Positions 46,819 through 50,376 of a stretch of DNA of 64,000 nucleotides are shown piece by piece. The translations under genes and the position numbers were made by a program. The stretch covers positions 1 through 64,000 of the forward strand of contig JAJFUB010000143.1 in assembly GCA_021372615.1 (NCBI GenBank), written 5' to 3'. Positions within the stretch are counted from its first letter, which is position 1. Every line of letters starts with the position of its first letter. Source of the stretch: a bacterium (GTDB lineage Bacteria; Armatimonadota; Zipacnadia; Zipacnadales; UBA11051). Below the pieces are notes generated by a model, which was given only the letters and a program-made list of their open reading frames with translations, searched no databases and had not been told where the DNA came from.

Positions 46819-46886
46819 GTAGCGGCGCGGTCCATCGCGCCCTCCCCCCCACGATCCGGCACGGGCGCGATGGATCGCGCCGCTAC
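46819..46886. repeat. Nested-palindrome repeat, ATCCAT-core type
   Basis: A 68-bp element from GTAGC to GCTAC. Its arms carry the cores GCGCGGTCCATCGCGC and, in reverse complement, GCGCGATCCATCGCGC, differing by one base, with a 22-bp spacer. Bases 46883-46885 (CTA) form the stop codon of the heparinase-like gene on the minus strand, as in the copy at 9609. Confidence 0.85.
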
Positions 46887-49528
46887 TGGCGTTGCAGGTG
46901 CGCCGCGCCGATGAGCTTCACCATGTGGTCGCCCCGGAAGCTCTGCAGCGGGGCGGTGAACCAGGTGCTGGTCTTCGTCGCGGGCGTCCAGTCGCAGCCG
47001 GGGTCCTCGGCGACAAGCAGCTTCGTGTCCACGCCGTCGAACACGGCCTGCTTGACCGTGTAGGCGCTCGTGTACTGCCCCGCGTGATCCAGGGTGACAA
47101 CCGCCCCTGCGGCGGCCGGGAACTTCCCGGCGACGGTGAGGGACGGCTCCGCACCGTGGGTCATGGCCATCAGCGCCGCGGACATCGTCGCGGGCTCCAT
47201 CTTCAGGTCGAGATCACCCCACATCAGCCACCCGCCGATGACCGTGGCCGCCTGCGGCTTGCCCTCCTGCACGCCCAGGACGGCGAGGTCGCAATGGGCG
47301 CTGAGGGGCTTCCCCTGCCAGCTTCCCGGTTGCTGCTCAGCCCCGACGAGGATGAGGTCGGTGCGCGTGTCGGTTTGCACTTCGAGCGCGAGGCGCGCGC
47401 CCGGCACATCCACGACGCGCACCTGCTGGATCGCCTTGGCCTGGCCGTATGGGGCGACCACGGCGGCGAAGAGGGACTTGCCGCCCGTGCGCCTCAGCAG
47501 CGCGAACTGTCGCCACGTGCTCTCCAGCTTGCTGTCATCGCTGCCCGCCTTGCGGATGGCCGGATCGCGGCCGAGGACGAGCTGGTCGCCCGGCTGGGTG
47601 ACCAGGAACGCCTGCAGCCCGGCGCCGGAGCCAACCGGGGAGTAGTCCAGGGGCGTCACCCCGGCGGTCGGGACGAAGGACTGCAGGTCGCGCAGGTAGC
47701 CGTAGGCATGGTAGGCCGACGAGTCCGTGGACTGCTCGTTGGTGCCCGGGCTGAACTTGAGGCCCGCGGGCAGCAGCGTGGGCAACGGCGTGCCGGTGAG
47801 GCCGGGGGCGGTCAGCGTCTGGGCGTCATCGGCGCTCCCGTGCAGGAAGTAGTCATGCTGCTTCCCGCCCTCCACCTCGAAGCAATCCACCAGGTAGCTG
47901 TCGGTGGGGGAGAGCCGCACCAGCGCCACCGTCCGGCGGTAGACCTGTGTGACGCCGGGGTAGACCTGCGGGTTGTCTACCGACACGGCCTGCACCTCGG
48001 GCCCGGCGGTGAAGTACCGCAGATGCCCGAGGGTCATATGGTCGGCCTTCTGGTTGGCGCCGTCCACGACGACGAGGTTGTGGGACGGGGAGAGCACGGT
48101 GTACTCGCGCCACTTGGTGTGCGTGTAGCCGAGGTCGGACAGCAGCTCCTGGCCGCGCGCGAACAGCAGCAGGCTGAGGCCGTCGAGATGGATGTGGCCG
48201 TAGCCGGGCGACCAGGTCAGGTGGGCCTGCACCTGGTTGCCGCCCTCGCCGCTGCCGAGGATCCCGTGGCCGAGGCCGGGCAGCAGGTCCGGCCGGGACG
48301 CCGTCAGCGCCTGGCCGCCGTTAGTCCACCAGGTGTCGTGGACCGGCGCGTACCGGCCGGTGGGCAGCCGCAGGCGCAGCAGGGCATCGCGCACGCGCGC
48401 CGTCTCCGGCAGGGCCTGCTCGAGGTCCAACTGATCGAGGCGCTCCCCGGTCCTGGGGTGCTTGTATCCAGGCGGGTCGCTGTAGCCTGAGGCGGCGGCG
48501 TAGACGGCCCTGAGGGCGCCGACGACCTGCGAGTGATACGACGGCGTGCCCTCCATCCAGGCCCCGTCGTAGAAGAACTGGCTGCGGGTCATGGCACGCA
48601 GGCGGCCGATCGCCTCATGCACCCACTCAGGCCGCTCCAGCACCCGGCCCGCCTGGATGACATCTGCCCACATGCCGGGGCTCATGTTCGTCAGATCGTC
48701 CTTGTTGCCCAGCGCCTGCTCAGTCATGGACGTGAGCATGGCGCGGACCTCAGCCGGCACGTCGCGCCCCGCCTCGGCCGACAGCTTCTCCAGCTCCCCG
48801 CTGGCGGCGATCAGGTCATACGCCTCGAGCAGCGAGGTCGAGATGTCCATGTAGGCCCACCAGGTCCACCGCGCCACGCGGAAGGCCGGGCTGAAGCCCT
48901 CGGGGGTGATGCTCCCCTCCTTGATGACCTTCTGCCGAAACGGGTAGTCGAAGTGGTAGCAGTACGCGGGGAAGACCTGGGCGAAGCGGGCGAGCAGCAG
49001 CGCGGCGCGCCGGCCGGCCGCGGCGTCTTTGGTCAGCCAGTACAGGCGCGCGAAGTCAACGGCGGCGCGCTCGGTGCAGCGGATCTTGTGGTAGTCCACA
49101 CGCGCCTGGAAGTAGTACCGGTACGGCTCCTGCTCCTTCCACCAGGCGGGCCGCCCCTCGTAGTACGGGTAGCGCGCTACGGACCCGCCAGGGGTCTTCA
49201 CCTCCTGCACCTTGTCCATCGGGTACTTGGCCGACGGGACCTCCTCGCCGCAGTATGCGCACTTGACCACGTCAGGATGCTGGAGGTCCCAGCGGGTGAG
49301 CTGGGTCTCCTGCATCCCCCGCGCGCAGTTCGGGCAGCTCACGAAGAACAGACCGGACTGCTCGGGCACGAGCTTGAGCATGTCGGCCTCGGGCAGCGCC
49401 AGCAGCGGGGCCACCGCCGCACGGAGGCCCGAGGCCTGGCCGGGCTTGAGCTGCACCGGCAGCAGCGGATGCTGGGCCGCGCACGTCAGCGAGGGGAGCA
49501 CGAGGAGGGCAAGCAGCAGCAGACGCAT
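46883..49528 (-). CDS. Heparinase II/III-like secreted protein
   Basis: 881 residues with signal peptide MRLLLLALLVLPSLTCAA. Two CxxC pairs (C65/C68 and C90/C93) follow, then an alpha/alpha toroid with EGTPSYHSQVVGAL (about 330) and the C-terminal sandwich with GYGHIHLDGLSLLLFARG (about 443). The His/Gln-Tyr arrangement fits uronate-glycan lyases. It is a distant paralogue of the protein at 6838-9612, sharing the Cys pairs and the EGTPSYH segment. The DUF559 frame overlaps its 5' end in another register. Substrate unknown. Confidence 0.85.
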   Translation of the reverse strand: MRLLLLALLVLPSLTCAAQHPLLPVQLKPGQASGLRAAVAPLLALPEADMLKLVPEQSGLFFVSCPNCARGMQETQLTRWDLQHPDVVKCAYCGEEVPSAKYPMDKVQEVKTPGGSVARYPYYEGRPAWWKEQEPYRYYFQARVDYHKIRCTERAAVDFARLYWLTKDAAAGRRAALLLARFAQVFPAYCYHFDYPFRQKVIKEGSITPEGFSPAFRVARWTWWAYMDISTSLLEAYDLIAASGELEKLSAEAGRDVPAEVRAMLTSMTEQALGNKDDLTNMSPGMWADVIQAGRVLERPEWVHEAIGRLRAMTRSQFFYDGAWMEGTPSYHSQVVGALRAVYAAASGYSDPPGYKHPRTGERLDQLDLEQALPETARVRDALLRLRLPTGRYAPVHDTWWTNGGQALTASRPDLLPGLGHGILGSGEGGNQVQAHLTWSPGYGHIHLDGLSLLLFARGQELLSDLGYTHTKWREYTVLSPSHNLVVVDGANQKADHMTLGHLRYFTAGPEVQAVSVDNPQVYPGVTQVYRRTVALVRLSPTDSYLVDCFEVEGGKQHDYFLHGSADDAQTLTAPGLTGTPLPTLLPAGLKFSPGTNEQSTDSSAYHAYGYLRDLQSFVPTAGVTPLDYSPVGSGAGLQAFLVTQPGDQLVLGRDPAIRKAGSDDSKLESTWRQFALLRRTGGKSLFAAVVAPYGQAKAIQQVRVVDVPGARLALEVQTDTRTDLILVGAEQQPGSWQGKPLSAHCDLAVLGVQEGKPQAATVIGGWLMWGDLDLKMEPATMSAALMAMTHGAEPSLTVAGKFPAAAGAVVTLDHAGQYTSAYTVKQAVFDGVDTKLLVAEDPGCDWTPATKTSTWFTAPLQSFRGDHMVKLIGAAHLQRQ

Positions 49529-50156
49529 GGTTCACCGAAGGTCCTTCCGCGAATGGCCGGGGGGCCGGCGGGACTAGTGTACCCGAAGCGTCGCGGGGGT
49601 GCAATTGGGGGCGGGAGGCGGCAACGGCAACGGCGTCCTCACCCCTACCCCTCTCCCTCGCTGCGCTCCGGAGAGGGGACGTCGGGTGGCGCTTTGTGGC
49701 TGCGAAGGCACGGAGTGGTCGGACGGTTCCCCTCTCCGGCGCGCAGCCGTACCGCGCGCGGGTGAGGGGTTGGGGTGAGGACGCCGTTAGCCTTCCAGCC
49801 GCTCCCCCCAACACCCTCCGGATCTCATCCACCACCAACACAACATCCCACTCCACCGCCTCGCTCTGGAACCTCATCACACGTATGCCCAGCTCCCGCA
49901 ACTGCCCATCGCGCCAGCGGTCGTACCGCACCTGTTCATCGTGTAGCGGGCCGTCCACCTCGACGGCAAGTTGCGCCGAGACGCAGTAGAAGTCCAGCAC
50001 GAACCGGTCGCACGGATGCTGGCGACGGAAGCGCACACCGAGCTGTCCGTTCCGCAGGGCCTGCCACAGGATGCGCTCAGCCTTCGAGGCGCTATGGCGC
50101 TGTTCGCGGGCGAACTTGATCTGCTCGAGGGGGCGACCGGTAGTGGGTGCCGACAT
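49272..50156 (-). CDS. DUF559 (Vsr-like) endonuclease domain protein with repeat-encoded tail
   Basis: The first 120 residues form a full DUF559 domain: LWQALRNGQLGVRFRRQHPC, FVLDFYCVSAQLAVEVDGP and the DEQVRYDRWRDGQLRELGIRVMRF stretch carry the D-(E)xD-type nuclease residues of the restriction-endonuclease-like fold. From about residue 123 the frame enters the inverted repeat at 49629-49788, so the native stop appears lost and the open frame runs on 172 residues, ending inside the heparinase gene. The functional protein is probably the 120-residue domain with a low-complexity tail. Start at the ATG at 50156. The gene stands exactly between two inverted copies of one repeat. Confidence 0.75.
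   Translation of the reverse strand: MSAPTTGRPLEQIKFAREQRHSASKAERILWQALRNGQLGVRFRRQHPCDRFVLDFYCVSAQLAVEVDGPLHDEQVRYDRWRDGQLRELGIRVMRFQSEAVEWDVVLVVDEIRRVLGGAAGRLTASSPQPLTRARYGCAPERGTVRPLRAFAATKRHPTSPLRSAARERGRGEDAVAVAASRPQLHPRDASGTLVPPAPRPFAEGPSVNHASAAACPPRAPLADVRGPASAAAGAAQARPGLGPPCGGGPAAGAARGRHAQARARAVRSVLRELPELRAGDAGDPAHPLGPPAS
49629..49788. repeat. Left inverted repeat of the DUF559 cassette
   Basis: 160 bp bounded by perfect 17-bp inverted ends AACGGCGTCCTCACCCC (49629-49645) and GGGGTGAGGACGCCGTT (49772-49788), with internal CCCCTCTCC/GGAGAGGGG palindromes. Its interior (49681-49711) matches the reverse complement of 50294-50324 at 29 of 31 bases. Confidence 0.9.
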
Positions 50157-50207
50157 GGTGTGTGAACTCCCCCCTGGGGAACGACATGTGCGCTGCGCGC
50201 ACGGTTG

Positions 50208-50376
50208 AACGGCACTGACTTTCTCCTCACCCCTACCCCTCTCCCTCGCTCCACTTCGTTCCGCTCCGGAGAGGGGAGCTGTGCGACCATTTCGTGCCTT
50301 CGCAGCCACAGAGCGCCATCCGACTTCCCCTCTCCGGAGTGAAGCGAGGGAGAGGGGTAGGGGTGAGGACGCCGTT
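50208..50376. repeat. Right inverted repeat of the DUF559 cassette
   Basis: About 169 bp ending GGGGTGAGGACGCCGTT (50360-50376), identical to the end of the left copy. The start AACGGC is separated from CCTCACCCC by an 11-base insertion. Its interior matches the left copy in inverted orientation. It lies about 52 bp upstream of the DUF559 start. Confidence 0.88.

Follow-up and report, generated by a model that had tools for sequence, protein, structure and literature searches.

A DUF559 nuclease gene with a predicted Vsr fold, framed by two copies of one palindromic repeat, was identified in the window (the whole 64,000-nucleotide stretch of DNA analysed here). The gene and its paired palindromes probably constitute a small mobile element, in which the nuclease cuts its cognate repeat and recombination copies the gene; we place the probability of this reading at about 0.62. 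The features of the locus are collected in Table 1.

Table 1 Features of the nuclease locus, in window coordinates.
Feature	Position	Strand	Basis or remark
Left palindromic repeat, perfect 17-bp terminal inverted repeats	49629-49788	.	Arm matching, folding, own-genome copies
17-bp end AACGGCGTCCTCACCCC	49629-49645	.	Inverted copy at 49772-49788
DUF559 (PF04480) nuclease domain, predicted Vsr fold	49809-50120	-	Profile search, structure model
Nuclease open frame, ATG 50156	49272-50156	-	Reads through left repeat; stop 49272-49274; frame end may not be protein C-terminus
Right palindromic repeat, core 50224-50376, inverted versus left, left end degenerate	50208-50376	.	
17-bp end GGGGTGAGGACGCCGTT	50360-50376	.	

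The two repeats had been described in the first-pass annotation as inverted copies of each other, and the match of 29 in 31 bases given there proved exact. A repeat search of the window showed that the arms at 49629-49781 and 50224-50376 are 85% complementary over 153 nt, whereas the best of 2000 random ungapped 153-nt pairs taken from it reached 46%. The common 17-bp end reported for both copies was likewise exact; it is found at both termini of the left repeat and only at the outer terminus of the right one, and the ends AACGGCGTCCTCACCCC and GGGGTGAGGACGCCGTT pair with each other. Each repeat is a two-level palindrome with an outer pair CCTCACCCC/GGGGTGAGG and an inner pair CCCCTCTCC/GGAGAGGGG, and the DNA folds of the two repeats gave z = -10.6 and -10.8 relative to shuffled sequences. 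Because the repeats are palindromic, the two copies also match in direct orientation (71%), and they are read as inverted because the centre is asymmetric. A search of known RNA families returned only a chance match, and PADLOC defence annotation returned just a weak, partial DpdF match. As read, the nuclease frame does not stop at the left repeat but runs on into the next gene, the start of which it overlaps in another frame, so the position of the protein C-terminus is uncertain. A neighbouring heparinase-like gene (881 aa, 46883-49528) belongs to a large paralogous set, for which each genome of the family has 28-72 matches; it has homologues in relatives, but the genes next to them are without a match and there is no synteny with the window locus.

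The description of the enclosed gene as a Vsr-like nuclease was borne out by profile search, in which its domain matched DUF559 (PF04480) with 98.6 bits against a cut-off of 20.6. The structure model of the protein (pLDDT 90.5) matched NGO0050 (3hrl, Z 14.6), I-Bth0305I (3r3p, Z 11.8) and Vsr (1cw0, Z 9.8), and as modelled the nuclease is a Vsr-fold enzyme of the PD-(D/E)XK type. The nearest solved folds are accordingly those of NGO0050 and then of the homing endonuclease I-Bth0305I, which was also recovered by Foldseek (5e-5) and by sequence-profile matching (E 2e-5). Five residues, E27, D55, E66, H72 and D79, are invariant in the DUF559 alignment and would fit an active metal-dependent nuclease in which they have a presumed catalytic role; three rows from plasmid records were left out of the structure and conservation set.

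Elsewhere in the window genome (6.4 Mb, 171 contigs), 46 non-overlapping copies of the repeat were found at about 40 sites. The unit is 145-190 bp long with 17-bp terminal inverted repeats in most copies; most of 20 aligned copies start with AACGGCGTCCTCACCCC and finish with GGGGTGAGGACGCCGTT, and the flanks beyond these ends differ. Target duplications were not evident by eye in the 20 aligned copies, for which there was no base-exact empty site to compare. Each of six family relatives contained 0-2 matches to the window repeat, so this variant is, as judged from the sequences, one that expanded in its own lineage. Four DUF559 genes are present in the window genome: that of the window, a second (L001) framed by the same repeat type, a third (L002) framed by a different palindrome with GTAGG ends, and a fourth cut by a contig end. 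Loci of the relatives (L035, L036, L037 and L039) are framed as well, each by its own repeat variant.

Framing by repeats recurs in many phyla. The best 80 of 559 loci from a GTDB genome scan were taken, so the sample is biased toward the query's near relatives; a repeat was common to both 500-bp flanks in 51 of 74 scan loci and in 13 of 375 random positions on the same contigs. One palindromic repeat was present on both sides within 500 bp at 121 of 160 DUF559 loci and at 11 of 214 control genes (Fisher p 2e-49, a guide only since related loci are not independent). In the genome-contig set alone the proportion was 46/69 (p 3e-25), and by group it was 23/28 in alphaproteobacteria and 24/28 in Nostoc. 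About one quarter of the 160 loci were without a detected repeat on both sides, and the repeat-end motif was found on at least one side in 139. These repeats are built to a common plan, in which a C-rich hairpin is enclosed by an outer arm of CCTCACCCC/GGGGTGAGG type or a variant of it. The proposal that gene and bracketing repeats form a unit had been staked on an excess of flanking repeats and on the existence of empty sites, and both were found. CGTC REPs, reported to be without a dedicated transposase (PMC3733652), were considered as cognate repeats and rejected in alphaproteobacteria, in which the DUF559 genes are bracketed by C-rich CCCTCTCC types.

Repeat type is found, by sequence comparison, to follow the nuclease tree, also across phyla and among clades in one genus. 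On a tree of 154 nucleases, computed from about 110 columns and with many forks unresolved, the repeat end type requires 45 changes against a shuffled mean of 78, with 0 of 200 shuffles as low, a difference that is inflated by near-copies. Comparisons free of host kinship are provided by the genus Nostoc, in which three nuclease clades correspond to three repeat types, and by L002 and L035, from the window's genome and family, which fall with the Nostoc TAGG clade in the tree (SH-aLRT 99) and, like it, have TAGG repeats.

The nuclease-palindrome unit is gained and lost, both as a cassette and as a bare repeat. Among 53 Nostoc genomes, matches number 0-8 per genome and some are truncated. A Nostoc cassette of 590-680 bp is 88-97% identical in unrelated surroundings; the shared sequence ends just past the right repeat and starts upstream of the left repeat, which in Nostoc is part of the coding region. 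The earlier suggestion that the repeats are the ends of the element therefore holds for the discrete, 17-bp-ended element of the window genome and does not extend to the left side of the Nostoc cassette. At an orthologous Nostoc intergenic site, G180 is occupied and G166 is empty (714 versus 98 bp, with flanks 88-91% identical). A site within a plasmid methyltransferase gene is found in three states, since Planktothrix (L246) has it empty, Pseudanabaena (L245) has an in-frame repeat pair there, and Synechocystis (L184) has repeat-DUF559-repeat, with the host frame broken. The MetH linker in one bacterial family contains an in-frame cassette in G212, only a repeat in G226 and G220, and neither in G215 and G227; the far side of the site is less sure in G226, whose contig begins nearby. 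Of the two things that the first-pass annotation proposed to look for in close strains, empty sites were found (Nostoc, methyltransferase and MetH) and target duplications were not evident by eye.

Cassettes lie in frame in MetH, HrpA, HsdM, HsdS, a GmhB-like gene and many R-M/BREX-type methyltransferase genes (host names beyond MetH, HrpA and HsdM were read from sequence), with insertions counted only where the host gene was recognisable on both sides. Long open frames through repeats were rejected as evidence of in-frame insertion, the genome being high in G+C. In-frame cassettes are strikingly frequent in DNA methyltransferase genes of restriction/BREX-type systems (L046, L049, L052, L062, L073, L082, L094, L104, L122 and L036), and those of L049 and L104 occupy the same place in the methyltransferase, just before the NPPF motif.

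Cleavage followed by copying is the simplest model that accounts for sites found in three states, for cassettes in frame within genes and for the likeness to a homing endonuclease fold. We infer that the nuclease moves the unit, most likely by cutting its repeat, after which recombinational copying takes place. The nuclease would nick or cut its cognate palindrome, which might be in the form of a cruciform or of a single-stranded DNA hairpin. A cut at or beside the palindrome would then allow recombination between repeats to copy the nuclease gene into repeat-bearing sites in a homing-like manner, and rarer repair at new sites could seed new repeats. Repeat-only copies would represent a non-autonomous (MITE/REP-like) form.

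The alternative that survives best, although we consider it fairly unlikely, is that another enzyme (a RAYT/Y1 transposase or an IS) or replication slippage moves the repeats, and that DUF559 is a homing-type passenger that uses them as landing pads and homology arms and makes no new repeats. Such a passenger would suit the MetH site, where the single repeat of G226 and the left repeat of the cassette in G212 coincide in position; the gene may thus have been inserted into a repeat that was already there, or recombination between repeats may have removed it. It would also suit the place of a homing endonuclease as the closest solved fold after NGO0050, and the situation in E. coli. The E. coli gene ycjD (L183/L185, MG1655 1351407-1351760) belongs to DUF559 and adjoins, on one side only, a repeat built to the same plan, GGGAGAGGGTTAGGGTGAGGGG, which probably is the classic box C. 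Almost every E. coli genome contains box C-like repeats, several phylogroups have no ycjD, and the repeats persist in strains without the gene. The interval between sapF and fabI has ycjD and the eefRABCD efflux operon as alternative occupants (PMC12817139). The passenger account is countered by the tracking of nuclease clade by repeat type and by a search, covering Y1_Tnp, in which no other gene was found tied to these repeats. RAYTs were rejected as the mover in the window genome: all seven of its Y1_Tnp genes have unrelated repeats of their own, none of which matches the window repeat. These genes (L272-L278) are ordinary RAYT-type loci, and L278, near a contig end, allowed a partial test.

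In a further, doubtful alternative, DUF559 would serve its host in repair or restriction (for example in VSP repair or as part of an R-M system), the repeats would be no more than common terminators or REPs that collect near small intergenic genes, and the methyltransferase fusions would be functional. The many in-frame cassettes in DNA methyltransferases are in keeping with such a role, as is the Caulobacter DUF559 protein VsrA, which has been linked to DNA damage in vivo in cells without a cytosine methyltransferase (PMC12907096). As read from the ORF list, no cytosine methyltransferase is encoded among the neighbours of the window gene at 46-54 kb, and Caulobacter VsrA is likewise unlinked to one. 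A host function is, however, hard to reconcile with the rarity of such repeats at control genes (11/214), with cassettes in MetH, HrpA and the GmhB-like gene as well, with host-gene homologues that lack cassettes, and with the patchy copy number and truncated copies in Nostoc. Chance flanking of the gene by G+C-rich palindromes, or an artefact, is extremely improbable in spite of the many repeat sites of the window genome, given the complementarity of the arms against random pairs and the excess across phyla.

The mobile-element reading can be set beside known systems. In REP/RAYT systems a small nuclease gene is flanked by palindromes, many bare repeats lie elsewhere, and enzyme and repeat co-diverge (PMC2817692). 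The DUF559-palindrome unit would work like a REP/RAYT pair, its nuclease gene also being bracketed by copies of one palindrome with which the enzyme co-diverges, but it is no REPtron: the window enzyme is assigned to DUF559 (PF04480) with a modelled PD-(D/E)XK Vsr fold and not to HUH/Y1, the ends of the window repeat are paired and have no unpaired GT(A/G)G head, and DUF559 cassettes lie in frame in genes. The EDxHD/Vsr-like homing endonucleases, such as I-Bth0305I (PDB 3r3p), have the same predicted fold and are compatible with break-driven copying; in contrast to them, DUF559 units are framed by palindromes and occupy many unrelated sites, with no intron or intein in view. Rickettsia palindromic elements, likened here by description and not by sequence, are also palindromes in frame in protein genes. 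The window repeat resembles bacterial MITEs in being a discrete unit with 17-bp terminal inverted repeats and differs from them in having no target duplication evident by eye.

It is an even call whether these units form a separate class of mobile elements, widespread among bacterial phyla, that can enter conserved genes in frame and whose palindromes are recognised and spread by a Vsr/PD-(D/E)XK nuclease of their own in place of an HUH or DDE enzyme. Such a class would explain a widely scattered family of C-rich palindromes, to which E. coli box C may belong. Some short bacterial palindromes have a proposed mover (RAYTs) and others have been reported without a dedicated enzyme (PMC3733652); here, a candidate enzyme is put forward for one large repeat family, and the two are found as matched pairs in many phyla. 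DUF559, a large family often labelled as a repair nuclease, gains another likely role, and the element is seen entering enzymes in frame, methionine synthase among them. No report of a link between DUF559 and repeats was found in the open-licence literature on DUF559, COG2852 and ycjD. Testable partners exist in laboratory organisms, namely E. coli ycjD and Nostoc.

Two further arrangements were observed. In Nostoc sp. FACHB-110 (L077), two tandem DUF559 cassettes lie 691 bp apart and have 334-bp flanks in common at 96.7%. In N. gonorrhoeae (L182, NZ_CP119142.1), a DUF559 gene close to NGO0050 (PDB 3hrl) is flanked by direct repeats of 114-122 bp that are ~88% alike, the downstream one of which has further tandem units.
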